Source: Marichromatium purpuratum 984 (lineage in GTDB: Bacteria; Pseudomonadota; Gammaproteobacteria; Chromatiales; Chromatiaceae). From it: a stretch of DNA of 64,000 nucleotides. Of this stretch, positions 22,410-62,785 are shown one piece after another. The notes under the pieces are model-generated. The model was not told the DNA's origin. It saw only the letters and a program-made list of their open reading frames with translations, and made no database searches. Where the stretch lies: contig NZ_CP007031.1 in the NCBI RefSeq assembly GCF_000224005.2, forward strand, positions 1,103,501 through 1,167,500, written 5' to 3'. Position 1 is the stretch's first letter. Every line of letters starts with the position of its first letter. Position numbers and translations under genes: made by a program.

Positions 22410-22533
22410 GCACGCTGTGTTTGCCAAGGACGAGGCCAGGGCAGTAGGCTTCGGCCATCAGCCCCGTGCCGCCGGTTGCGGCGTGACTGGGGATTCGGGG
22501 TGAAGCGCTCAGGTGATGCGAAGGGATCGAACC

Positions 22534-24363
22534 ATGCAGCAGTGTTGCGGTTGGATGCCGGCCGAGCAACGGCCGGTGGCGGAGATTCAGGGATGTCTTG
22601 CAGCCATGCTCGAGGGCAGTGCCGCCGAGGTGGCGCAGCGCTGTGTTGCCGAGGGTGGGTTTGCGGGTCGATCCGGGGCCGATCTGGCCGAGTCGGACGG
22701 CCTGCTTGTGCTGATCGTCGGTCGTCCACGCAGTGCGCATGATTCCGCTCCGGTCACCGCGCGCGCGCTGCTCGCGCGCTGGCAGGAGCGGGGCAGGGCG
22801 CTGCTCGGTGAGCTGCACGGCCCCTTCGCGCTGGCCGTGCTCGATCGCCGCCGCCGCACCCTGACCCTGGCGATCGATCGGCTCGGTATCCATTCCCTGG
22901 CCTTCGCCGTCGGGCCTCGGGGCGCCGTCTTCGCCACCCGCGCCGACCGGGTCGCCGCCCACCCCGAGGTGGCCGCCGCGCTCTCGCCCCAGGGGCTGTT
23001 TCACTATCTCTACTTCTACCAGGTGCCGGCGCCGGGGACGGTGTTCCACGGTGTCGAGAAGCTGCTGCCGGCCGAGTGGGTCGAGATCGACGCCTGTGGC
23101 GGGGTGGCGCGCGGCTTCTACTGGCGTCTGGCCTATCGCGACGCGCCCCGCCACGACTTCGCCGCGCAGCGCGCGCGTTTCCACGGGCTGCTGCGCGAGT
23201 CGATGACGCGTGCCCGGGGCGAGGACGCGGTCGCCGCCTTCCTCTCCGGCGGCACCGACAGCTCCACCGTCGCCGGGGTGCTCACCGAGCTGCAGGGCAC
23301 GCCGGCGCGCACCTATTCGATCGGTTTCGCCGCCGAGGGTTTCGACGAGATGGAGTACGCGCGGCTCGCCGCCCGCCACTTCGGGCTCGACGCGCGCGAG
23401 TACTACCTGACCCCCGACGACGTCCTCGCCACCATCCCGCTGATCGCCACCACCTACGACGAGCCTTTTGCCAACGAATCGGCGGTCTCGGCCTATCACT
23501 GCGCGCGTCTGGCCGCGGCGGACGGCTACCGGGTGATGCTCGGCGGCGATGGCGGCGACGAGATCTTCGGCGGCAACGAGCGCTACGCCAAGCAGGGCGT
23601 CTTCGAGCTCTACGCCGCGCTGCCGGCGCCGCTGCGTCGCGGGCTGATCGACCCGCTCGCCGCGCTGCCGGGGATGGGAGCCTGGTGGGGCGGGCGCAAG
23701 CTGCAGAGCTATGTGCGCCAGGCGCGCATCCCGCTGCCCGAGCGCATGGAGTCCTACAACTTCGTCCACCGCCAGCCGCTCGCCGAGATGTTCACCGCCG
23801 ACTTCCTCGCCGCGATCGACCCCGAGGCGCCGGCGGCGCTGCTGCGCGATCCCTACAATCGCGCGGCCAGTGACAGCTATATCAATCGCATGCTCCATCT
23901 CGACCTCAAGTTCACCCTCGCCGACAACGACCTGCGCAAGGTCTCGGCGATGGCCGCCGCGGCCGGGGTCGAGGTGCGCTATCCGCTGATCGACGACGCC
24001 ATGGTCGAGTTCTCCGGCGAGGTGCCGCCCGACTGGAAGGTGCGCCGGGGCTATCTGCGCTGGTTCTTCAAGCGCGCGCTCAAGGGCTATCTGCCCGATG
24101 CCATCATCGACAAGAGCAAGCACGGCTTCGGCCTGCCGTTCGGGGTCTGGGTGCGCGAGCACGGACCGCTGCGCGAGCGCGTCTCCGATCGTCTCGCCGA
24201 CAGCCAGCGTCGCGGCTGGCTGCAGCCGGGCTATGTCGAGCGGCTGCGCCGCGCCCACGAGGCCGAGCACGCGACCTATTTCGGCAAGATGCTGTGGGTG
24301 CTGGTGACGCTCGAGGAGTGGCTCGATGCCCAGCCCGACCGGGTCGTGCGGCTCCATGACTGA
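22534..24363 (+). CDS. Asparagine-synthetase-like amidotransferase with degenerate glutaminase domain
   Basis: A 609-residue protein with the C-terminal ATP-pyrophosphatase/synthetase domain intact: FLSGGTDSST (PP-loop, near residue 240), LGGDGGDEIFGGN and the C-terminal DKSKHGFGLPFGVW. The N-terminal half keeps the end of the Ntn-type glutaminase fold (GPFALAVLD, DRLGIHSLAF). It starts MQQCCGWM instead of Met-Cys-Gly-Ile, however, and lacks the RGPDD, RLSIID and NGEIYN motifs, so glutamine hydrolysis is doubtful. It opens the exopolysaccharide series; exosortase loci commonly hold such amidotransferases. The ATG at 22534 follows AAGGGA; in-frame starts at 22513 and 22516 are less likely. The next gene overlaps it by eight bases. 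Confidence 0.85.
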   Translation: MQQCCGWMPAEQRPVAEIQGCLAAMLEGSAAEVAQRCVAEGGFAGRSGADLAESDGLLVLIVGRPRSAHDSAPVTARALLARWQERGRALLGELHGPFALAVLDRRRRTLTLAIDRLGIHSLAFAVGPRGAVFATRADRVAAHPEVAAALSPQGLFHYLYFYQVPAPGTVFHGVEKLLPAEWVEIDACGGVARGFYWRLAYRDAPRHDFAAQRARFHGLLRESMTRARGEDAVAAFLSGGTDSSTVAGVLTELQGTPARTYSIGFAAEGFDEMEYARLAARHFGLDAREYYLTPDDVLATIPLIATTYDEPFANESAVSAYHCARLAAADGYRVMLGGDGGDEIFGGNERYAKQGVFELYAALPAPLRRGLIDPLAALPGMGAWWGGRKLQSYVRQARIPLPERMESYNFVHRQPLAEMFTADFLAAIDPEAPAALLRDPYNRAASDSYINRMLHLDLKFTLADNDLRKVSAMAAAAGVEVRYPLIDDAMVEFSGEVPPDWKVRRGYLRWFFKRALKGYLPDAIIDKSKHGFGLPFGVWVREHGPLRERVSDRLADSQRRGWLQPGYVERLRRAHEAEHATYFGKMLWVLVTLEEWLDAQPDRVVRLHD

Positions 24364-25471
24364 GCCGTCCGGGGCCGACAGTCCCGCGCGCATCGTCCTG
24401 GTCGGGCCGCTGCCGCCGCCGGCCGGCGGCATGGCCAACCAGACCCGCCAGCTCGCCGAGCTGCTGCGCGCCGAGGGGCTGGCGGTCGAGCTGGTGCAGG
24501 TCAACGCCCCCTACCGTCCGGTCTGGGCCGGACGGCTGCCGGTGGTGCGCGCGCTGTTCCGCCTGGTGCCCTATCTGTGGCGGCTGTGGCGCGCCATGGG
24601 CGCTGGCGGGGTGGTGCACCTGATGGCCAACTCCGGCTGGTCCTGGCACCTCTTCGCCGCCCCGGCGCTGCTGATCGCCCGTGTCCGCGGGCTGCCGGCG
24701 GTGATCAACTATCGCGGCGGCGAGGCACAGACCTTCCTGCGCGCCCAGGCGCGCTGGGTGGTGCCGCTGATGCGTCGCGCCGCGGCCATCGCCGTGCCCT
24801 CGGGCTATCTGCGCGCGGTGTTTGCGCCCTACGGCCTGGAGACCGAGGTGGTGCCCAACATCGTCGATCTCGAACGCTTCGCCGTGCGCGCCGCCGCTGT
24901 GCGCCACCCCGAGGCGCCGCACCTGGTGGTCACCCGCAACCTCGAGGCGATCTACGACAACACCACCGCGCTGCGCGCCTTCGCCCGCATCCGCGCGCGC
25001 TGGCCGGCGGCGCGCCTGACCATCGCCGGTACCGGGCCCGAGGCCGCGGCGCTGGCCGCCGAGGCGCGCGCGCTGGGGATCGCCGCGGCGGTGACCTTCA
25101 GCGGTCGGCTCGAGCGCGCGGAGATGGCCGCGCTCTATGCCGAGGCCGACCTGATGCTCAACCCCAGTCGGGTCGACAACACCCCCAACTCGGTGCTCGA
25201 GGCCTGGGCGAGCGGGGTGGCGGTGGTCAGCACCCGGGTCGGCGGGCTGCCCTATCTGGTCGAGGACGGGGTCGATGCCGTGCTGGTCGCCCCGGGTGAT
25301 CCCGAGGCGCTGGCCGAGGCGGCCTGCGCCCTGCTCGCCGACCCCGCGCGCCGCGCCGCGCTGGTCGCCGCCGGGCAGCGTGCGGCCGAGCGCTTCTCCT
25401 GGCCGGCGGTGCGGCCGCTGTGGCTCGCGCTCTATCGCCGGGTCGCCGGTGGGGAGGGGTGCGGCGAGTGA
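24356..25471 (+). CDS. Glycosyltransferase, GT4 family
   Basis: A 371-residue GT-B fold glycosyltransferase. The N-terminal acceptor loop is GPLPPPAGGMANQTRQL (residues 14-30). The nucleotide-sugar domain has AGTGPE and a C-terminal NPSRVDNTPNSVLEAWASG, the GT4 E-x7-E region in a variant form in which the first glutamate is replaced by Asp. It overlaps the asparagine-synthetase-like gene (ATGACTGA) and the next gene (GTGA). It probably adds one sugar of the exopolysaccharide repeat at the cytoplasmic membrane face; donor and acceptor cannot be read from sequence. Confidence 0.85.
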   Translation: MTEPSGADSPARIVLVGPLPPPAGGMANQTRQLAELLRAEGLAVELVQVNAPYRPVWAGRLPVVRALFRLVPYLWRLWRAMGAGGVVHLMANSGWSWHLFAAPALLIARVRGLPAVINYRGGEAQTFLRAQARWVVPLMRRAAAIAVPSGYLRAVFAPYGLETEVVPNIVDLERFAVRAAAVRHPEAPHLVVTRNLEAIYDNTTALRAFARIRARWPAARLTIAGTGPEAAALAAEARALGIAAAVTFSGRLERAEMAALYAEADLMLNPSRVDNTPNSVLEAWASGVAVVSTRVGGLPYLVEDGVDAVLVAPGDPEALAEAACALLADPARRAALVAAGQRAAERFSWPAVRPLWLALYRRVAGGEGCGE

Positions 25472-26742
25472 GAGACATCGCCATCACCCTGATCATCTTC
25501 GGCCTGTTGCCGGTGATCCTCTCGCGCCCCTATGTCGGCATCCTGGTGTGGTCCTGGCTCGGCTACATGAACCCGCACCGGCTCGCCTGGGGGTTCTCGA
25601 CCACCATGCCCTTCGCGATGATGGTGGCGCTGGCGACCTTCGCCGCGATGATCGCCTCCAAGGAGCGCCACCCGCTGCCCTGGTCGCGCGAGACCGTGGT
25701 GTTGCTGATCCTGGTGCTGTGGATGTTCATGACCACGGCGCTCTCGCTCTATCCCTGGCTGGCCTGGCCGCAGTGGGACAAGGTCTGGCGGATCATGCTG
25801 ATGACCTATGTCACCCTGATGCTGATCAACGATCCGCAGCGGGTGCGGTTGCTGATCTACGTGATCGCACTCTCGATCGGTTTCTACGGCTTCAAGGGCG
25901 GGGTCTTCGTGCTCACCGGCGGCAGCTCGAACTCGGTGCTCGGCCCGACGGGTAGCTTCATCGAGGATCGCAACTCGCTCGGTCTGGCGATGATCATGAC
26001 GGTGCCGCTGCTCTATTACATGCGTGCGCAGATGACGCATGTGTGGGCGCGGATAGGGCTGCTGGTCGGTATCGTGCTCACCCTGATCGCCATCGTCGGC
26101 ACCCATTCGCGCGGCGCGTTGCTCGGGTTGGCGGCGATGATGCTGTTCTTCCTGCTCAAGTCGCGACAGAAGTTCGCCGCCATCCTGGCGATGATCCCGC
26201 TGGCGCTGGTGTTGCTCTACGTGATGCCCGAGGAGTGGTTCCAGCGCATGGAGACCATCGAGCACTGGGAGGAGGACGAGTCGGCCTCGGAGCGGGTGCG
26301 CGCCTGGCACAACGCCATCGATCTCGCCCAGCACCGCTTCATCGGTGGCGGCATGCGCGCGCTGGTGGTCTGGGGCGGGCGCGACTCGCACAGCATCTAT
26401 TTCGGTATGCTCGGCGAGCACGGCTGGGTGGGGCTTGGGCTGTTCCTGCTGCTGCTGTTGCTCACCTGGCGCTCGGCGAGCTGGATCATCCGCAACGCCA
26501 AGCGCCAGCCCGAACTTCGGTGGGCGCGTGATCTCGCGGCGATGATCCAGGTCAGCCTGATCGGCTACATGGTCGCCGGCGCCTTCCTCGGGCTGCAGTA
26601 CTTCGACATGTACTATCACCTGGTGGTGATCGTGGTGATGACCAAGATCCTGGTGCGCCGTGCGCTCGAGCCCGATGGGCCGGCGCGTGCGCCACCGCTC
26701 GGCCGGCGCGCGCCGACACTGGCACGGGGGCTGGACCGATGA
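25468..26742 (+). CDS. Exosortase A-associated O-antigen ligase-like protein
   Basis: A 424-residue polytopic membrane protein (about ten to eleven hydrophobic segments) of the Wzy/WaaL superfamily. It resembles the putative O-glycosylation ligase group found in XrtA/PEP-CTERM loci: the N-terminal LLPVILSRPYVGILVWSWLG followed by MNPHRLAWGF is distinctive. The long loop carries the typical FIEDRNSLGL, THSRGALLGL and RFIGGGMRAL segments plus a DSHSIYFGMLGEHGW stretch with the conserved histidine. It may polymerise the repeat unit or transfer the glycan to a protein or lipid. GTG start after GGGGAGGGG, coupled to the upstream gene. Confidence 0.85.
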   Translation: MRDIAITLIIFGLLPVILSRPYVGILVWSWLGYMNPHRLAWGFSTTMPFAMMVALATFAAMIASKERHPLPWSRETVVLLILVLWMFMTTALSLYPWLAWPQWDKVWRIMLMTYVTLMLINDPQRVRLLIYVIALSIGFYGFKGGVFVLTGGSSNSVLGPTGSFIEDRNSLGLAMIMTVPLLYYMRAQMTHVWARIGLLVGIVLTLIAIVGTHSRGALLGLAAMMLFFLLKSRQKFAAILAMIPLALVLLYVMPEEWFQRMETIEHWEEDESASERVRAWHNAIDLAQHRFIGGGMRALVVWGGRDSHSIYFGMLGEHGWVGLGLFLLLLLLTWRSASWIIRNAKRQPELRWARDLAAMIQVSLIGYMVAGAFLGLQYFDMYYHLVVIVVMTKILVRRALEPDGPARAPPLGRRAPTLARGLDR

Positions 26743-46561: not shown

Positions 46562-46876
46562 ATGACTACCCCGAATTCGTCCGCCGCCGAACATGGCCCG
46601 AATCCTCAGGCATCGCGACGGCGATTGCTCAAGCAGGCCGCTATCGCCGCGCCTGCGATCCTGACCCTGCGCAGTGGCGCGGCGCTCGCCCAGACCAGTG
46701 GTTGTCTCGATGTCATCGAGCGCAATGTCAAGCGCGAACTCAATCCCGGCGAGGCCTGCGACGGCTTTCTGACCAACGAGACCGACAACGGCGTGACCAC
46801 CACCCAGTGCAATGGCAACATCGTCACCGCCTCTTCGGCGACCTCGTTGGGGCCGGACGCGCCGCTTTGCGAGTAG
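46562..46876 (+). CDS. Small Tat-signal cysteine protein, candidate substrate of the PqqD/HprK module
   Basis: A 104-residue protein with an N-terminal twin-arginine signal: ASRRRLLKQAAIAAPAILTL (residues 17-36), then SGAALAQ as likely cleavage site near residue 44. The mature part is only about 60 residues with four cysteines (GCLD, EACDG, TQCNG, PLCE), acidic and rich in Thr/Asn/Ser, without a known domain. Export by Tat implies folding or modification before transport. It is directly followed by the PqqD-like, HprK-like and nucleotidyltransferase genes (44-base gap to the first), so it is the natural candidate for a precursor modified by them. That role is inference. Confidence 0.8.
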   Translation: MTTPNSSAAEHGPNPQASRRRLLKQAAIAAPAILTLRSGAALAQTSGCLDVIERNVKRELNPGEACDGFLTNETDNGVTTTQCNGNIVTASSATSLGPDAPLCE

Positions 46877-46920
46877 CGCCGCTCCCGTGCTCGCCGAGCC
46901 TTGCCCGGCGGCGGTGAGCG

Positions 46921-47229
46921 ATGACCGTGCTGTCGTCGACATCCGTGCAACGGCGCTGGCGCTTGAGCAGCGCACCCTTACTCGAAGTCGAGTGGGACGG
47001 TGAGCGGCTGCTCTATCATGGTGCCTCGGGCGAGACCCACTTTCTCAATGCTACCGGCGCGCTGGTGGTCGAGCGGTTACGCGAGGGCGATGCCGATCTC
47101 GACGAACTGCTCGCGGCGCTCGACCCCGAGTCATTGGGGGTCGCGCCCGACGTGTTGCGTGACCAGCTCGATGCGCTGCTCACGCGTCTCGACGAACTGG
47201 GGATCGTAATCGGGACGACGGCGGCGTGA
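46921..47229 (+). CDS. PqqD-like protein of the HprK-related kinase A system
   Basis: A 102-residue protein of the PqqD (RRE) fold, the peptide-binding chaperone of many RiPP pathways. Typical strands WRLSSAPLLEVEWDGERLLY and ETHFLNATGALVVERL lead into the helical part LDELLAALDPESLG and DQLDALLTRLDELGIV. The version matches the HPr-rel-A PqqD family, which occurs together with an HprK-related kinase, often in exosortase genomes. It should bind the leader region of a substrate, most simply the adjacent Tat protein. The stop overlaps the GTG of the kinase gene. Confidence 0.85.
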   Translation: MTVLSSTSVQRRWRLSSAPLLEVEWDGERLLYHGASGETHFLNATGALVVERLREGDADLDELLAALDPESLGVAPDVLRDQLDALLTRLDELGIVIGTTAA

Positions 47230-48143
47230 GGGTCGGTGATCTCAGCGGCGGCGAGCTTGCTCGCCAAGTGCGTTCTCGCCCCGGACTCGACGTGCGCATC
47301 GGCCCCTTCCTGGTGAACCTGCGGCTCGGTCTGCGCGAGCCGTTGCCGCTGCTGCAACGAATGTGGCACGACTACCCCCTGGAGCCGTCGGCCGGGATAC
47401 GCGACTTCCACGTCAGCCTCGATCACAACGGCTGGTTGCGGCGCTGGTGGCGCCCGCAGGCGCGTTTTGCCGTCGATGGCCGCTCTCCCTTCCAGCCGCT
47501 CGCGGCCGCCCACCATTTCCCGATGCTCGAGTGGGGCCTGAACTGGTGCGTGGCCCGCCGCGCTCACCATCTGCTGATGCTCCATGCCGCAGTGCTCGAG
47601 CGCGCTGGGCATGCGCTGATCCTGCCCGGAGCGCCGGGTGCGGGGAAGTCGACGCTGTGCACCGCGCTCGCCCATCGTGGCTGGCGGCTGCTCTCTGACG
47701 AGTTCGCGCTGGTGTGTCCGCAATACGGGCGCCTGTTGCCGCTGCCGCGTCCGATCCCGCTGAAGAACGCTTCGATCGGGGTGATCCGCGATTTCGCGCC
47801 GGAGGCCGAGATCGGGCCTGCGTTCATCGGCACGCGCAAGGGTACCGTGGCGCATGTGCGCCCCCCCAGCGTGGCGGTTGCGCGCATGGACGAGCCGGCG
47901 GTTCCCGGTTGGCTGGTGTTCCCGCGCTGGCGGGCCGGGGCCGAGACCCGGCTCGAGCCGTTGAGCAGGAGCGATGCCTTTCTGTTGGTGGCGAGCAATG
48001 CCTTCAACTACGAACTCCTTGGCGAGACCGGTTTCATCACCGCGGCGCGTCTGGTCGAGCACTGCGGTTGCCACACCCTGAGTTACTCCAATCTCGACGA
48101 GGCGATCGCCCGGCTCGGTGCGCTGGCGGAGGGTGCGGCATGA
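47226..48143 (+). CDS. HprK-related kinase A
   Basis: A 305-residue protein with the P-loop kinase core of HPr kinase/phosphorylase: LMLHAAVLERAGHALILPG then GAPGAGKSTL (Walker A, near residues 139-148), WRLLSDEFAL (Asp/Glu metal site near 160) and IPLKNASIG. It lacks the N-terminal HPr-kinase domain and there is no HPr gene, so the substrate is not the sugar phosphotransferase protein. Homologous kinases in lasso-peptide clusters phosphorylate a peptide serine. GTGA and ATGA overlaps with both neighbours show tight coupling. Its target here is probably the Tat protein or a carbohydrate; both are inference. Confidence 0.88.
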   Translation: MRVGDLSGGELARQVRSRPGLDVRIGPFLVNLRLGLREPLPLLQRMWHDYPLEPSAGIRDFHVSLDHNGWLRRWWRPQARFAVDGRSPFQPLAAAHHFPMLEWGLNWCVARRAHHLLMLHAAVLERAGHALILPGAPGAGKSTLCTALAHRGWRLLSDEFALVCPQYGRLLPLPRPIPLKNASIGVIRDFAPEAEIGPAFIGTRKGTVAHVRPPSVAVARMDEPAVPGWLVFPRWRAGAETRLEPLSRSDAFLLVASNAFNYELLGETGFITAARLVEHCGCHTLSYSNLDEAIARLGALAEGAA

Positions 48144-49279
48144 GTCGGCGCATGGCCGAATCACGCCGTGCCGCGACATTGCTGGTGGCGGCGCTGAGGG
48201 CACCGGAGCGGTTGCCGACGCTGGCCGACGAGGACTGGGACCTGTTGCTGCGCATCGCCCGACACGCACGCCTGCTCGGTCGGCTCGATGCCGATCTCGG
48301 CACGCTTGGTCTCCATGCGCGCGTGCCCGAGCGGATCTGTCATCATCTGGAGTCGGCGCGTCAGCAGGTTGCCTATCGGCAGCGACTGTTGACCTGGGAG
48401 GTCGACCGTGTGCTGCGCGCGCTCGAGGGCCTCGATGTCCAGGTCGTGGCGCTCAAGGGCGTGGCCTATGTCCTCGCCGGGGTGCCGGCGGCGCGAGGTC
48501 GACCGTTTGCCGATGTCGATCTGTTGATCCCGATGGCGGCGCTCGAGCCGGTCGAGCAGCGCTTGCGCGCACGCGGCTGGCTGTCGCTCGGTCACTCGGC
48601 GTATGACGAGCACTACTATCGCGACTGGATGCACGAGATCCCGCCGTTGCGCCATGCCGAGCGTGACAACGAGATCGATATCCACCATCGGCTGCTGCCC
48701 CGGACCAGCCGCTTCCATTTCGATCCGGCGCCACTGTTCATCGCCAGTCGGGCTCTCGAGGGGCACGGGGCGCTGCGGGTGCTGGACGCGCCCGACATGG
48801 TGTTGCACGCGGTGGTACACCTGTTTCTGGAGGGGGATGCGCACGAGGGCCTGAGGCTGCGCGATCTGGTCGATGTCTGGGACCTGATCCGTCACTTCGA
48901 GGCTCACGCGGGGTTCTGGGACGCGTTGCTCGATCGCGCTGAGCTGCACGGGCTGCGGCGTCCGCTGTTCCATGCGCTACGTCAGGCACAAGTGCTGTTC
49001 GCGCTCGAGCCGCCGGCGCGGTGTCGCGCCAGGCTCGCCGGATGGGGGCCGGTGGCGCCGGTGCGATGGCTCATGGATCGTCTGGTGTCGCTGGCGCTCT
49101 TTCCCGATCATGCCGGGCGAGCACCGCTCCGGGTGAGGTTGGCGCGACTGGCGCTCTATGCCCGCGCGCACTGGCTGCGGATGCCTTCCGGGTTGCTGCT
49201 GCGCCATCTCGGCTACAAGGGCTGGCTGCGTCTGCGCGGGTGGTTGCTGGCAGGTCGCGGGGAGGCGGCGCGCCGCTGA
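48140..49279 (+). CDS. Nucleotidyltransferase family protein (NTP_transf_5 type)
   Basis: A 379-residue protein of the polymerase-beta-like nucleotidyltransferase superfamily as found beside HprK-related kinases. The core is VVALKGVAYVLAG (near residue 106) followed by GRPFADVDLLIPMAALEPVE with the catalytic aspartates of the D-x-D motif. The remainder is helical (DEHYYRDWMHEIPPL, DIHHRLLPRTSRF, VLHAVVHLFLEG). In lasso-peptide loci the homologue acts after the kinase on the phosphorylated peptide. It ends the four-gene unit; a 405-base AT-rich gap follows. Confidence 0.85.
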   Translation: MSRRMAESRRAATLLVAALRAPERLPTLADEDWDLLLRIARHARLLGRLDADLGTLGLHARVPERICHHLESARQQVAYRQRLLTWEVDRVLRALEGLDVQVVALKGVAYVLAGVPAARGRPFADVDLLIPMAALEPVEQRLRARGWLSLGHSAYDEHYYRDWMHEIPPLRHAERDNEIDIHHRLLPRTSRFHFDPAPLFIASRALEGHGALRVLDAPDMVLHAVVHLFLEGDAHEGLRLRDLVDVWDLIRHFEAHAGFWDALLDRAELHGLRRPLFHALRQAQVLFALEPPARCRARLAGWGPVAPVRWLMDRLVSLALFPDHAGRAPLRVRLARLALYARAHWLRMPSGLLLRHLGYKGWLRLRGWLLAGRGEAARR

Positions 49280-49684
49280 TTGGGGCGTCTGTGGGATTGG
49301 TGTAGCATACACGGATCGATTGTTCTGACCTTGCAGAATCATGCTGGATCGCTCCCTTTGTCAATCGAGAGGGATCGATTCTTCTGGCATGGTTGATCTA
49401 TTGAAATGCTTTTTATGTAAGATTTTTTTGAGCTTTTTCGTGGGGTGTCTGACGCTTTGTTAGTCACCTGGTTCAGCGCTGGCCCGTTGTGGTTGGTGTC
49501 CACGTTTAGATCTTGATGACACGCGCCCGCGCATCGCCGGTCGCGAGTGCCGGTTGCCGGTACGAGTCGCGATGGACGTGCCGGTATGGCCGCTTGCGAT
49601 CGTAGAGTGTCCGGACATGTCTTTTCGCCCGCTGCGGGACCCTTTGTTTGTCGCGCCGCGCGATGCCAGCCAGGAATCCAGCCC
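49280..49684. other. AT-rich regulatory region before the initiating sugar transferase
   Basis: No gene seen. The stretch 49385-49440 is exceptionally AT-rich for this genome, with T-runs, and could hold the promoter or end the upstream unit. A 15-base direct repeat lies at its left side (separate entry). Confidence 0.55.
49313..49386. repeat. Direct repeat GGATCGATTsTTCTG
   Basis: Copy 1 at 49313-49327 and copy 2 at 49372-49386 agree at 14 of 15 bases (s = G in the first, C in the second), 59 bases apart. Copy 2 also forms an inverted pair AATCGA/TCGATT with the bases just before it. Possible operator pair for the sugar transferase gene. Confidence 0.6.
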
Positions 49685-51073
49685 ATGCGTTCGGTTCGTA
49701 TCTTTCGTCACTACATGCGTCTCCCCCTGCTGATCCTGGCCGGGGTTGAGGGGCTGATGTTCGTCGCCTGTTTCCATGCCAGCTTCCATCTGCGTTGGTG
49801 GTCGATCGGCGCCGAGGTACCGGCCTCGAGTTCCGAGGTGGTGGTCTACTCGGTGGTGTTGGCGGTCATCTTCGTGCTTTCGATGGGCGCCATGGGTCTC
49901 TACGAGGCCAGCCTCCGCGAGGGCTGGTGGGGCTCGTTGCTGCGCATCGTGCTGGCGTTGCTGCTCGGTGCCGTGGCGCTGGCGGCGATTTCCTTCAGCT
50001 TTCCGCACATCGAGCTGTGGCGCAGCATCCTGGCGCTGACCGTGGTGCTCTCGATCATCGCCGTGACCGCTCTGCGATTGCTCTCTTATGTCATCAAGCC
50101 GGGTATCTTCAAGCGACGGGTGCTGGTGCTCGGTGGCGGACCGCTGGCCGAGGCGGTGATGGTTGCCAATCCGCGCGGGCTCGATATCGTCGGGCTGGTG
50201 CCCCTGCAGACCGACGAACACGAACGCGACCTGCCGGAACGGATTCCCTATGACCGTCCGTTGTTGCGCATCGTCACCGAGACTCAGGCCGATGAGCTGG
50301 TGGTGGCGGTCAAGGACCGGCGTGGCAAGCTGCCGATCGAGGAGCTGCTCGACTGTCGCATGGCGGGGATCCAGGTGCTCGAACCGCAGGGCTTCTTCGA
50401 GCGCGAGATGGGGGTGGTCAAGCTCGATCTGCTGACGCCGAGCTGGCTGATGCTCTCGGATGGCTTCCAGCACGGGGCGATGACGATGCTGCTCAAGCGG
50501 TTGTTCGACGTGCTGGTCTCGGTGGTCTTCCTGGTGCTGCTGTGGCCGGTGATGCTGATCACCGCGCTGGCGATTGCCGTCGAGAGCCGTTTCCGCCACC
50601 CGGTGTTCTATCGTCAGACCCGGATCGGCGAGAACGGCATGCCCTTCGACGTGGTCAAGTTCCGCAGCATGCGAGTCGACGCCGAGGCCGACGGCCGAGC
50701 GCGCTGGGCAACCAAGAACGATTCGCGCATCACCCGTGTCGGGCGCTTCATCCGCAAGACCCGGATCGACGAGTTGCCGCAGATCTTCAATGTCCTCAAG
50801 GGCGAGATGAGCTTCGTCGGGCCGCGTCCCGAGCGCCCCGAGTTCGTCGCCACCCTGGCGAGCAAGTACGACTATTACGCCGCGCGTCATCGCGTCAAGC
50901 CGGGGCTGACCGGCTGGGCTCAGCTCTGCTACCCCTACGGCAGCTCCGAGGAGGATGCGCTGCGCAAGCTCGAGTACGACCTCTATTACGTCAAGAACTA
51001 CAGTATCTTTCTCGACCTGTTGATCCTGATCGAGACGGTCGAAGTGGTGGTGTTCGGCAAGGGGGCCGTCTAG
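49685..51073 (+). CDS. XrtA/PEP-CTERM system initiating sugar transferase (polyprenyl glycosylphosphotransferase)
   Basis: A 462-residue membrane enzyme that starts the repeat unit by moving a sugar-1-phosphate to undecaprenyl phosphate. Four N-terminal membrane segments (to about residue 130) are followed by a CoA-binding-like domain (VLVLGGGPLAEAVM). A fifth segment (LLKRLFDVLVSVVFLVLLWP) leads into the WbaP/PglC-type catalytic domain with VFYRQTRIGENGMPFDVVKF and RIDELPQIFNVLKGEMSFVG. The N-terminal arrangement and the SWLMLSDGFQ stretch fit the exosortase-associated family TIGR03013. AGGAA stands upstream of the ATG. Stand-alone transcription unit. Confidence 0.92.
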   Translation: MRSVRIFRHYMRLPLLILAGVEGLMFVACFHASFHLRWWSIGAEVPASSSEVVVYSVVLAVIFVLSMGAMGLYEASLREGWWGSLLRIVLALLLGAVALAAISFSFPHIELWRSILALTVVLSIIAVTALRLLSYVIKPGIFKRRVLVLGGGPLAEAVMVANPRGLDIVGLVPLQTDEHERDLPERIPYDRPLLRIVTETQADELVVAVKDRRGKLPIEELLDCRMAGIQVLEPQGFFEREMGVVKLDLLTPSWLMLSDGFQHGAMTMLLKRLFDVLVSVVFLVLLWPVMLITALAIAVESRFRHPVFYRQTRIGENGMPFDVVKFRSMRVDAEADGRARWATKNDSRITRVGRFIRKTRIDELPQIFNVLKGEMSFVGPRPERPEFVATLASKYDYYAARHRVKPGLTGWAQLCYPYGSSEEDALRKLEYDLYYVKNYSIFLDLLILIETVEVVVFGKGAV

Positions 51074-58928: not shown

Positions 58929-59059
58929 GCGGGCAACTGCCCCGGGTCCTGGTGTGTGTCAGTGATCGCGCCGACGCCACACTCGTGCAGCGAACGTGAC
59001 GGCGTGTCGTGCTGGCCTCGGACGCCCTGCCTCGAGGCCATTTCGCAAGAGGATGATTG

Positions 59060-62000
59060 ATGTCGCGTGCAACGAAAATGATCGAACTGGCCGCTGTCTC
59101 CACGGCACTGACGCTGTTGAGCGGGGCTGCCCTGGCCACCTCCGCCGACCCCCTGCAGCGCGGCGCCGCCGCTCTCGCCGATGGTGAGCCGCGGGTGGCG
59201 GTCATCGAGCTGAAAAATGCCCTGCAGGTCGATCCCCGCAATGCCCAGGCGAGGGCTCTGCTCGGCCGTGCTCTGCTCGCGCAGGGGGATGTCAATGCCG
59301 CGGCCCAGGAGTTCGAGCGTGCGCAGCGACTCGGCGCCGATGCCGTGCTGCTCCAGCCCTGGCTCGCCCGCACCTGGCTGCGCCGTGGCGAGTTCGAGCA
59401 GTTGCGCGTGCTCGAGCTGACGCCGGAGTTGTCGCCCGCACATCGCGTCGAGCTGCTCGCGCTGCGTGCCGAGGCCGAGCTGGCCGACGGCGAGTCGAGT
59501 ACGGCGCGGGCGACACTCGAGCATGCCGCCGCGCTGCTGCCCGGTGCGCCCGCGGTACAGCTCGCCCTGGCCCGCGTCGAGGTTGCCGAGGGCGCGCTCG
59601 GCGAGGCACGCGCACGGCTCGCGACCCTGCTCGAAAACGCCCCGGAGACAACCCGGGCCTGGTCGTTGAGCGGGGAGCTGGCGCGCCAGGCTGGTGACAT
59701 GGACGCGGCCGAGGCGGCCTTTTCGCAGGCCTTGGACGACCCGCTGGAGCAGGCCCAGGCACGACTCAACCGGGCTTATGTGCGGATCCAAGACGGTCGC
59801 TTCGATGCGGCTCAGGCCGATCTCGATCAATTGCGCCGCGCCGCGCCCGACAATCCGCTGATCAAGTATGCGCAGGGCTTGCTGTTCTACAGCCGTGAGG
59901 ACTATGCCGCCGCGATCGAGCAGCTGGATGCCGCGCTCGGTGCGCTGCCCGATTTCGCGCCGGCGCAGTCGCTGGCGGGGGCGACGCGACTGGCGCTGGG
60001 TGAGCCCGAACTCGCGCGCATCCATCTCGAGCGCGCCCGCTCGCTGCGTCCGGATGATGTATCGACCCAGCGGTTGTTGGCCATGACCCTGTTGCAGCAG
60101 GGCGAGGCGGTCAAGGCCGAGCGGCTGGCGCGCGTGGTGCTCGAGCGTCAACCCGAGGATCTCGCCACCATGGATCTGCTGGCAAGCGCCCTGCTGCGGC
60201 AGGGCCGGCGCGAGGAGAGCCTACCCTATCTGCGTCGGGTCAAGGCGGGACTGCCAGACTCCCCGGTGGCCAGCGCGCGGCTCGGTGCGGCGCTGCTCGC
60301 CGACCCCGGATCCGACGAGGGCATGCTGGAGTTGCAGGCTGCGCTGGCGCAGGATCCCGGTTTTCAGGGCGCGGCCGAACAGCTGGTGATCGGCCGACTG
60401 GCGCGTGGCGAACTCGACCAGGCACTGGCTGCGGCGCGTGACTACCGTGATCGTCACCCCGACTCGGCGCGCGCCCACACCCTGCTCGGGGTGGTCGAGT
60501 TGCGTCGCGCGGCGCCGCAGGCTGCGCGCGCGGCATTCGAGCGGGCGCTGGTACTGGATGCCTCGGATCTCACCGCGACCACCGGACTGGCGACCCTGGC
60601 GCTCGCGCGTCAGGAGCTTGCCGAGGCGCGGCGGCTGTTCGACCGGAGCCTGGAGGCGCGCCCCGACGATCCACGGGTGCTGGTCGCCCTGGCCCGGATT
60701 GCACTGACCGAGGGTGAGACCGGACAGGCGCTGGCGCTGCTCGAGCGGGCGGTGACGCGCAACCCCGATACACTGGCCCCCAGACTCTATCTGGCCGCCT
60801 ATCAGTTGCGTCAGGATGAGACTGCGCTGGCGCTCGAGACGCTCGACGCGGCGCGCTTACGCTTTGGCGAGACCCCGGTGCTTCTCGGTCTGATCGCGGA
60901 TGCGCAGCTCGCGCTCGCGCGTCACGGTGCTGCTCGCGATACCTTGATGCGTCTGGTCGAGCTGGCGCCTGCCGATCCTCGGGTGCGGGTCGCCCTGGCG
61001 ACCAGCCTGGTGGGGTTGGAGGAGTTCGCCGCCGCGCGCGATCAGCTCGATCGTGCCCTGGAACTCGATCCCGAGTTCGCGCCGGCGCTTTCCTGGTCGT
61101 CGCGTCTGGCGCTCGCCGGGGGCGAGTTCGACCAGGCCGAGGCGCAGTTGGAAAAGCTGCGTCAGGTCCGGGGCGCGCTCGATGCCGATGTGTTGCTGAT
61201 CCAGGGGCAGCTGGCGCAGCAGCGCGGTGACCTGTCGAGCGTCGCCGATGCCTTTACCGAGCTGCTCGAGGGCGCGAGTGACGATCCCGCGCTCGGCCTC
61301 GACCCGCAGCGTCTCGACGCCGCCGAGCAGTTGGTGCTCGGTCAGGTGCGACGCGGTGACCTGGCCGCCGCGATCGATGCCGCGCGCGCACTCTGTGCGC
61401 GTGAACCCGATGCCGCGCGACCGCGTGCGCTGCTCGGGATGATCTATCTGCGCGCCGATCAGCGCGAGGCGGCGGCAACGGCCTTCGCCGAGGCGCTCGA
61501 TCGCGACCCCGGCATGGCGATGGCAGTCGACGGACTGGTCTCGCTCGACCTCGAGAGCGATGATCTCGACACCGCCGCGGGGCGTTATCGCCGCGCGCTG
61601 GAGGCGGCGCCCGGAGATGCAGAGCTGTTGATCGGTCAGGCGCGGCTGGCGCTGCTGCGCGAGGATCCGCAAGGCGCGCAGCAGGCCCTCGAGGCGGCAC
61701 TGCTGGCCAACCCCGAGCAGCTGCGTCCGCGGCTCTATCTGGCGGCCTACCAGCTGCAGCGTGGCCAGCCACAAGAGGCCCTCGACGTACTTGACGCCGT
61801 GGCCGCCGCCCATGCCGACGCCCCCGATCTGCTCGGCCTGCGCGCCGAGGCCCAGCTTGCGCTGGGGGACAACGAGGCTGCCCGTCAGAGTCTGGTGGCG
61901 TTGGCTCGTTTGCAGCCAAGCGCGCCCGGGGTATTGACCGCCCTGGCGACCGCCGAGGCGCGACTGGGACGCATGGCGTTGGCCGAGGAGGCGCTGCAAC

Positions 62001-62785
62001 GGGCCCTGGAGCAGGCGCCCGATTCGGCTGCCGCGCATGCTGGGCTGGTCCGGCTGGCGTTGACCGCAGAGGACGTGGTGCTGGCCGGTGAGCGGCTCGA
62101 GGCGCTGCGTGCGGTGGTCGGTGAGGAGCACCCTGAGGTGTTGTTACTCGAGGGGCTGGTCGCTGATCAGACGGGGGATGACGTGGCTGCGCTGGCGAGC
62201 TATCGACGCCTGTTCGAGATGATGCCGAACTCGGTCAATCTGCTGCGGCTGGCGCGTGCGCAGCGCCAGACCGATGACCCCGCGGCGGCTGTTGCAACCT
62301 TGGAGGATTGGCTCGTGGAGCATCCCGAGGATGTTCCGATTCAGTTCAACCTGGCGCAGATGCACATGGAGGTCGGGCAGTTGTCGGAGGCCATTGCCGC
62401 CTTCGAGCAGACCATCGAGATCGCACCGGAGCATGCCATTGCGCTCAACAACCTGGCTTGGTTGATTCGTGATCGGGACCGTGCGCGCGCGCTGGACTAT
62501 GCGCGTCGCGCCTATGCCGTGGCACCAGAGTCGGCGGACGTGGCCGACACCTTGGCGGTGGTGTTGTTCGAGGAGAAGGCCCTCGACGAGGCGAGGCGGG
62601 TCATCGACGAGGCCCAGGCGCTCGCGCCGAGGAGTGCGACGGTACGCTTCCACAAAGCGCAGATCCTGGTCGCTCAGGGGCTCGACGACGAAGCCAGACG
62701 GTTGCTCGAGTCGACCCTTGTCGACGTCGAGGATTTTCCTGAGCGCGCCGCGGCCGAGTCGTTGCTCGCTCGTCTCGGTCGCTGA
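59060..62785 (+). CDS. Giant TPR protein, PrsT-like (XrtA/PEP-CTERM system)
   Basis: A 1241-residue exported protein built almost wholly of tetratricopeptide repeats (roughly thirty), e.g. AQARALLGRALLAQGDVNAA and ALNNLAWLIRDRDRARALDY near the end. Length and layout match the PrsT TPR proteins of XrtA/PEP-CTERM loci. The signal sequence IELAAVSTALTLLSGAALA ends in AxA with no lipobox cysteine, so this version is predicted to be a soluble periplasmic protein, whereas PrsT is usually described as a lipoprotein. It probably acts as a periplasmic scaffold for polysaccharide or protein export. The ATG at 59060 follows AAGAGG. A strong hairpin lies after the stop. Confidence 0.88.
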   Translation: MSRATKMIELAAVSTALTLLSGAALATSADPLQRGAAALADGEPRVAVIELKNALQVDPRNAQARALLGRALLAQGDVNAAAQEFERAQRLGADAVLLQPWLARTWLRRGEFEQLRVLELTPELSPAHRVELLALRAEAELADGESSTARATLEHAAALLPGAPAVQLALARVEVAEGALGEARARLATLLENAPETTRAWSLSGELARQAGDMDAAEAAFSQALDDPLEQAQARLNRAYVRIQDGRFDAAQADLDQLRRAAPDNPLIKYAQGLLFYSREDYAAAIEQLDAALGALPDFAPAQSLAGATRLALGEPELARIHLERARSLRPDDVSTQRLLAMTLLQQGEAVKAERLARVVLERQPEDLATMDLLASALLRQGRREESLPYLRRVKAGLPDSPVASARLGAALLADPGSDEGMLELQAALAQDPGFQGAAEQLVIGRLARGELDQALAAARDYRDRHPDSARAHTLLGVVELRRAAPQAARAAFERALVLDASDLTATTGLATLALARQELAEARRLFDRSLEARPDDPRVLVALARIALTEGETGQALALLERAVTRNPDTLAPRLYLAAYQLRQDETALALETLDAARLRFGETPVLLGLIADAQLALARHGAARDTLMRLVELAPADPRVRVALATSLVGLEEFAAARDQLDRALELDPEFAPALSWSSRLALAGGEFDQAEAQLEKLRQVRGALDADVLLIQGQLAQQRGDLSSVADAFTELLEGASDDPALGLDPQRLDAAEQLVLGQVRRGDLAAAIDAARALCAREPDAARPRALLGMIYLRADQREAAATAFAEALDRDPGMAMAVDGLVSLDLESDDLDTAAGRYRRALEAAPGDAELLIGQARLALLREDPQGAQQALEAALLANPEQLRPRLYLAAYQLQRGQPQEALDVLDAVAAAHADAPDLLGLRAEAQLALGDNEAARQSLVALARLQPSAPGVLTALATAEARLGRMALAEEALQRALEQAPDSAAAHAGLVRLALTAEDVVLAGERLEALRAVVGEEHPEVLLLEGLVADQTGDDVAALASYRRLFEMMPNSVNLLRLARAQRQTDDPAAAVATLEDWLVEHPEDVPIQFNLAQMHMEVGQLSEAIAAFEQTIEIAPEHAIALNNLAWLIRDRDRARALDYARRAYAVAPESADVADTLAVVLFEEKALDEARRVIDEAQALAPRSATVRFHKAQILVAQGLDDEARRLLESTLVDVEDFPERAAAESLLARLGR

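Follow-up and report, generated by a model that had tools for sequence, protein, structure and literature searches.

On what do the HprK-related kinase and its two partner proteins encoded in this stretch of the Marichromatium purpuratum 984 genome act? The stretch, 64,000 nucleotides at its full length and called the window hereafter, carries at positions 46562-49279 a set of four genes, all on the + strand, whose open reading frames (ORFs) were confirmed. The first (46562..46876, + strand, 104 aa) encodes a protein with a predicted twin-arginine translocation (Tat) signal, which has relatives near the kinase in other genomes and for which no NCBIfam or Pfam family scores over its cut-off. 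It is followed by the genes of a protein with the PqqD fold of RiPP (ribosomally synthesised and post-translationally modified peptide) recognition elements, or RRE (46921..47229, +, 102 aa; TIGR04353, HPr-rel-A system PqqD family peptide chaperone, 70.8 bits, cut-off 35), of an HprK-related kinase A (47226..48143, +, 305 aa; TIGR04352, 380 bits, cut-off 200) and of an NTP_transf_5 nucleotidyltransferase (48140..49279, +, 379 aa; PF14907, 192.8 bits, cut-off 31.2), which overlap stepwise by 4 bases at each junction. With these ORFs and family scores, the four-gene module described by the first-pass annotation proves to be real. Because the PqqD-like protein and the kinase exceed their cut-offs, the enzymes belong to the system that NCBIfam already names HPr-rel-A, a point absent from that annotation, as is the division of the Tat proteins into two classes with their own motifs. 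We consider it fairly probable that these genes make up a cassette dedicated to maturation and export, with the Tat protein as substrate. Read in this way, the cassette is probably a Tat-export variant of RiPP-style tailoring and the Tat protein the substrate of the HPr-rel-A system.

The same pairing of Tat protein and kinase recurs across many bacteria, and the small protein is therefore probably the target of the enzyme set. Within the window's family, 53 of 146 genomes have a kinase over the TIGR04352 cut-off; in a class draw the count is 27 of 274 genomes and in a phylum draw 61 of 398 (the window genome being counted in each). We assembled 192 loci: 52 from the family, 80 named ones (the best 80 of 542 confirmed relatives, including Thiocystis, Chromatium, Lamprobacter, Methylococcaceae, Massilia, Thiobacillus, Gallionella, Magnetococcales and Malonomonas) and 60 from the class and phylum, fetched out of 85 further kinase genomes. 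Removal of 11 duplicates left 181 loci with distinct kinases, the window locus not being among them. Forty family sequences served to train a first profile of the signal region, which was matched in a zone of -2.5 to +4.6 kb around the kinase start. Full context meant 1.3 kb or more of sequence upstream and 3 kb or more downstream; 6 of 52 family loci and 16 of 129 held-out loci fell short of this and were excluded. Held-out loci are those outside the training loci, and at least two of them (L109, L155) bear the title Chromatiaceae and may be members of the window's family. The first-pass annotation had proposed looking for a short Tat protein beside the kinase in other genomes. At 10 bits or more, such a protein was present in 46/46 family loci (training) and 91/113 held-out loci; the corresponding counts were 46/46 and 86/113 at 12 bits, and 46/46 and 71/113 at 20 bits. 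Control DNA of 400 kb, taken as twenty 20-kb stretches at arbitrary positions in six genomes of the window's family, gave no match at 10 bits and one at 8.3. Second-round profiles, which were built on the same loci and are not blind, found the protein at 15 bits or more in 108 of the 113 held-out loci, for a control maximum of 8.6 bits and at most 10.4 bits in loci picked for generic Tat signals. These profiles were fed in part by nine proteins that entered through a pattern added for a hand-picked list of 18 loci, and three chance ORF matches were dropped before the classes were counted. Thirty loci picked for generic Tat signals scored at most 10.2 bits with the first-round profile; the signal of the cassette is therefore conserved beyond the general Tat requirement.

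The arrangement of the genes is nearly constant. Among the 181 loci, the Tat gene lies directly upstream on the kinase strand in 152 and elsewhere upstream in 2, and none reaches 15 bits in 14 loci, contig-end loci included. In the 13 others it lies downstream, on the same strand in 8 and on the opposite strand in 5, so that the linkage survives rearrangement. Of the 181 kinases, 178 have a nucleotidyltransferase gene close by and 170 a PqqD gene, against none and one in the 400 kb of control DNA. One locus (L061, G087:C84) has two tandem class II Tat genes before a single PqqD/kinase/nucleotidyltransferase set.

The two classes of Tat protein are cleanly separated by a class I profile, with 89 of 164 proteins at 12 bits or more and 75 at 3.7 bits or less, and the window protein is a class II member. 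Class II proteins are 103-276 aa long and class I proteins 171-288 aa; the latter carry the motifs SPGYWKN and HAVAALLN, which in several class I loci (L032, L099, L112 and others) come after an SGxxSGNxS that often follows the signal. Two class I members checked had no Pfam or NCBIfam model over cut-off, and NCBIfam gave none for any of six Tat proteins tested. The four cysteines pointed out by the first-pass annotation are indeed the commonest number in class II (46 of 72 proteins; two in 13, three in 3, six to eight in 10). We nevertheless rejected "Cys4" as a fixed mark, since the number ranges from 2 to 8 in class II and from 2 to 12 in class I. In the loci of family f204 (presumably sphingomonad-like) that have a Tat protein, its C-terminus reads FTC[FY]ASLQMPRG or a close variant. 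The short Tat proteins of the loci L234, L236-L240 and L242 have FTC[FY]ASLQ at or close to their C-terminus, and the kinases of these loci are more divergent (231-251 bits with our own kinase profile).

The class of the Tat protein follows the kinase phylogeny. On a tree of 171 kinases, from which loci without class label or with short kinases were excluded, the class changes 3 times, versus 52-66 times in 50 shuffles. All 76 class II kinases stand on one side of a branch, together with 7 class I kinases (branch support 61), and the window's family contains both classes. A profile of 23 class II proteins, searched in the 146 whole genomes, matched in 46, 42 of them with a full kinase (Fisher 1e-21). 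A threshold of E 1e-7 leaves 31 genomes, 30 of them with a full kinase and one (G005) with a kinase fragment on the contig of the match; by their listed positions, all 31 matches lie on the kinase-carrying contig. Three genomes without a full kinase (G035, G071, G102) gave weak matches of 6e-7 to 1.7e-5. Extra class II copies elsewhere in the genomes are thus unlikely; they are not excluded, because part of the profile was built from the same genomes and scoring was limited to at most 27 first-look candidates in each.

The predicted twin-arginine signal of the window protein occupies residues 18-43 (SRRRLLKQAAIAAPAILTLRSGAALA; 46613..46690, + strand), as placed by an alignment of 23 class II sequences, the window's included, in which R19, R20, L22, P31, T35, L36 and A43 are invariant. 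The twin-arginine segment reads RRRLLK, and the RR-x-L, the hydrophobic stretch and the AxA were recognised by eye; the generic Tat model TIGR01409 matches weakly (12.1 bits, cut-off 16.7). A conserved leader upstream of the RR was considered and rejected, there being little conservation in that part of the alignment. The mature part of about 60 aa contains the cysteines C48, C66, C83 and C103. No PEP-CTERM sorting signal was listed for the protein by NCBIfam at E up to 1, the two models listed being weak and Tat-related, and a sequence search of the PDB gave no match. The AlphaFold2 model is weak (mean predicted local distance difference test score, pLDDT, 65.9; about 70-84 for residues 51-104) and presents three strands and a short helix at 90-96. 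Residues 91-96 (46832..46849, + strand) form the C-terminal motif SSATSL, in which S95 is the proposed phospho-acceptor. This motif came from a search in 64 class II proteins (73 before removal of L100, L200 and L231 and then of near-duplicates), which yielded [ST][CA][WLYF][TA]S[FLI] in the last 45 residues, with 63 of the 64 proteins carrying Ser at the position concerned (0.96 in the model). Its log-likelihood is 350 versus 97-102 in 12 shuffles, which had fewer starts and iterations than the real run. A looser pattern, written post hoc, occurs in 65 of the 72 class II tails, where shuffling gave 3.2 on average and 9 at most; for class I the count is 2 of 89 tails, with a shuffled mean of 2.5.

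The enzymes are conserved where catalysis would be expected. H120, K141, D158 and E159 of the kinase are invariant in 171 sequences, as are K106, G107, R121, D125, D127 and D180 of the nucleotidyltransferase in 177 (those over 250 bits, plus the window's), and by what is general for these families they are putative active-site residues. The AlphaFold2 model of the kinase (pLDDT 94.1) can be superposed along its entire length on ATP-PEPCK (Z 15.9, root-mean-square deviation 5.1, 281 residues), and Foldseek relates it to HprK 3tqf (E 2.4e-4); the 50 VIA-align rows shown are all PEPCK, which does not thereby exclude HprK. Likeness to both folds is expected for the HprK/PEPCK superfamily, to which the modelled fold and the invariant H120, K141 and D158 would assign the kinase, the residue correspondence being our inference. 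According to a review, lasso-peptide kinases carry a His-Lys-Asp-Asp motif (PMC9266682); the window kinase would have Glu as its last residue. The PqqD-like protein has as its best PDB sequence match TfuB1 (6jx3, E 0.0021), which we take to be a lasso-peptide B1 protein, and scores 34.7 bits with PF05402 (cut-off 23.4). By sequence, it thus appears to be an RRE-type protein related to known precursor-binding proteins. The same PDB search with the nucleotidyltransferase gave chance-level matches only. Taken together, the Tat protein in 108 of 113 held-out loci by the second-round profiles, the tracking of its class by the kinase and the conserved putative active sites bear out the earlier proposal of one unit with the Tat protein as likely substrate. 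At the level of sequence, the latter assignment appears well supported.

We therefore suggest the following pathway. Its order, kinase before nucleotidyltransferase before export, agrees with the first-pass annotation and is drawn by analogy with lasso peptides. The PqqD-like RRE protein would bind the Tat protein, most likely at the unusually conserved twin-arginine signal, and present it to the enzymes. The kinase would then phosphorylate a serine, most likely S95 of SSATSL, as we infer from the conserved site and from the lasso-peptide kinases, and the nucleotidyltransferase may add a sugar or a nucleotide to the phosphoserine. Both steps would precede export, and the modified protein would leave the cytoplasm through Tat, as its signal suggests. 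Its site of action might be the cell surface or the exopolysaccharide layer, which is the weakest step. A bolder version, possible although we regard it as doubtful, is a RiPP-like pathway in which the Tat signal doubles as leader: held by the PqqD-like protein, it would delay export until the C-terminal serine bears a phospho-sugar or phospho-nucleotide, and after release through Tat the modified serine would anchor the protein to exopolysaccharide or prime its synthesis.

Several observations weigh against a substrate role of the Tat protein or against parts of this pathway. Five full-context held-out loci (L098, L113, L219, L229 and L243) have no Tat protein by the second-round profiles, and one of the 30 generic Tat loci did reach 10.2 bits with the first. 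For 11 of the 181 kinases the search gave no PqqD protein in the vicinity (at least one of these kinases stands at a contig end), and among the cassette genes no protease was identified. The motif search gave no clear C-terminal motif for L036, a relative of the window; since class I tails lack the serine motif, it is not established that all members share a single acceptor. The small number of class changes on the kinase tree would likewise be expected if the cassette were inherited as a whole. Finally, the closest whole-length fold of the kinase is that of PEPCK, a small-molecule enzyme.

This last point leads to the strongest competing explanation, in which the enzymes modify a small molecule or a lipid-linked sugar destined for the exopolysaccharide pathway encoded nearby, the Tat protein being a co-regulated partner in the periplasm and not their substrate. 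Besides the PEPCK-like fold, the surroundings speak for it. The first-pass annotation had placed the unit in an exosortase/exopolysaccharide locus, and within the window's family 50 of the 53 genomes with the kinase do encode exosortase (PF09721), versus 37 of the 93 others (Fisher 1.2e-11); as a general statement this goes too far, the counts in the phylum draw being 32 of 61 versus 47 of 337 (3e-10), some genomes being incomplete. The exosortase of the window genome lies about 28 kb downstream of the cassette, and proteins over the cut-offs of TIGR03013, TIGR03694, TIGR02917 and TIGR03097 are encoded within the window. The first of these, an XrtA/PEP-CTERM system glycosyltransferase (EpsB_2; 49547..51073, +, 536 bits, cut-off 393), is the next gene after the cassette, a neighbour and not a member. 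Exopolysaccharide or XrtA-type genes also adjoin several other loci: of 115 neighbour proteins (114 from 27 class II loci, picked by eye from 199 ORFs, and the product of the window's next gene), 8 match EpsB_2 and 5 the XrtA amidotransferase at E 1e-20, and two XrtA glycosyltransferase models are matched by 5 each, one protein possibly matching several models and cut-offs not being checked there. The Tat protein nevertheless stands beside the kinase where exosortase was not found (e.g. L213, L216, L221, L222, L226), so that the exosortase link is strong, not obligate. A small-molecule role also fits poorly with the peptide-binding RRE-type protein, with the tracking of kinase clades by the class of the Tat protein and with the conserved C-terminal serine, and we consider it unlikely.

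Three further genes of the window belong to these surroundings. A putative O-glycosylation ligase of the exosortase A system (25420-26742, +; TIGR03097, 480 bits, cut-off 188) is a possible partner for a surface-exposed modified serine. An asparagine-synthase-like protein (22513-24363, +) has the XrtA amidotransferase as its best model (280 bits versus a cut-off of 817) and is a divergent member. The XrtA/PEP-CTERM tetratricopeptide repeat protein PrsT (59057-62785, +, 1242 aa; TIGR02917, 743 bits) is longer than the 899-position model and is listed with a TTG start.

If the Tat protein is indeed the substrate, phosphorylation could still be an activation only, the phosphoserine being eliminated and captured by a conserved cysteine in a lanthionine-like crosslink, or the site being otherwise cyclised. 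The motif is frequently S-C-W-x-S, with a cysteine beside the conserved serine, and many members have a serine shortly before the first cysteine after the signal. The four cassette genes, however, include no lyase or cyclase, cysteine numbers vary, and in the window motif Ala takes the place of the Cys seen in many others, which makes this chemistry quite improbable. It is very improbable indeed that the kinase is an HPr kinase acting on the HPr of the phosphotransferase system (PTS): its similarity to HprK is distant (3tqf, E 0.016; TIGR00679, 17.1 bits, far under the cut-off of 240), the one HPr gene found in the genome is about 0.79 Mb away, and the PqqD-like protein, the nucleotidyltransferase and the Tat protein would be left unexplained.

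Modification of the Tat protein by the cassette enzymes can finally be set beside three known systems. The HPr-rel-A system is matched by kinase and PqqD-like protein over curated cut-offs and, by a criterion that is ours from the survey and not NCBI's, by the adjacent NTP_transf_5 nucleotidyltransferase; it differs in that none of the six Tat proteins tested reached the cut-off of an NCBIfam model. Its kinase has a name in NCBIfam and occurs in the 61 phylum-draw genomes, yet no paper on the system was found in the literature collection searched. Two classes of Tat protein, without a family model for the members tested and one of them with a nearly invariant serine, emerge as the near-constant neighbours of this kinase, which would turn the enzyme set into a directly testable protein-modification system. 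With the XrtA/PEP-CTERM exosortase system the cassette shares its neighbourhood; it differs in that the Tat protein has no listed PEP-CTERM model and in that the cassette also occurs where exosortase was not found. The lasso-peptide pathways of paeninodin (PadeK) and pseudomycoidin (PsmK/PsmN) likewise combine an HPr-kinase-like kinase, a nucleotidyltransferase homologue and an RRE-type B1 protein. In the whole genome the best match to the lasso-cyclase model NF033535 reaches 211.5 bits and none its cut-off of 525. Matches to this model among the neighbours and in the window (117 bits for the asparagine-synthase-like protein, below cut-off) were rejected as asparagine-synthase-like proteins that better match TIGR03108. 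According to the review cited above, PadeK phosphorylates the C-terminal serine of the precursor before maturation, and PsmN, a nucleotidyltransferase homologue, adds one or two hexoses onto the phosphoserine, a host glycosyltransferase not being excluded (PMC9266682). The acceptor serine is thus at the C-terminus in the lasso peptides described there and would be near it in the window cassette. The substrate, unlike a lasso precursor, would be a Tat-signal protein of the lengths given above for the two classes, and the cassette would thereby join RiPP-style tailoring to Tat export.

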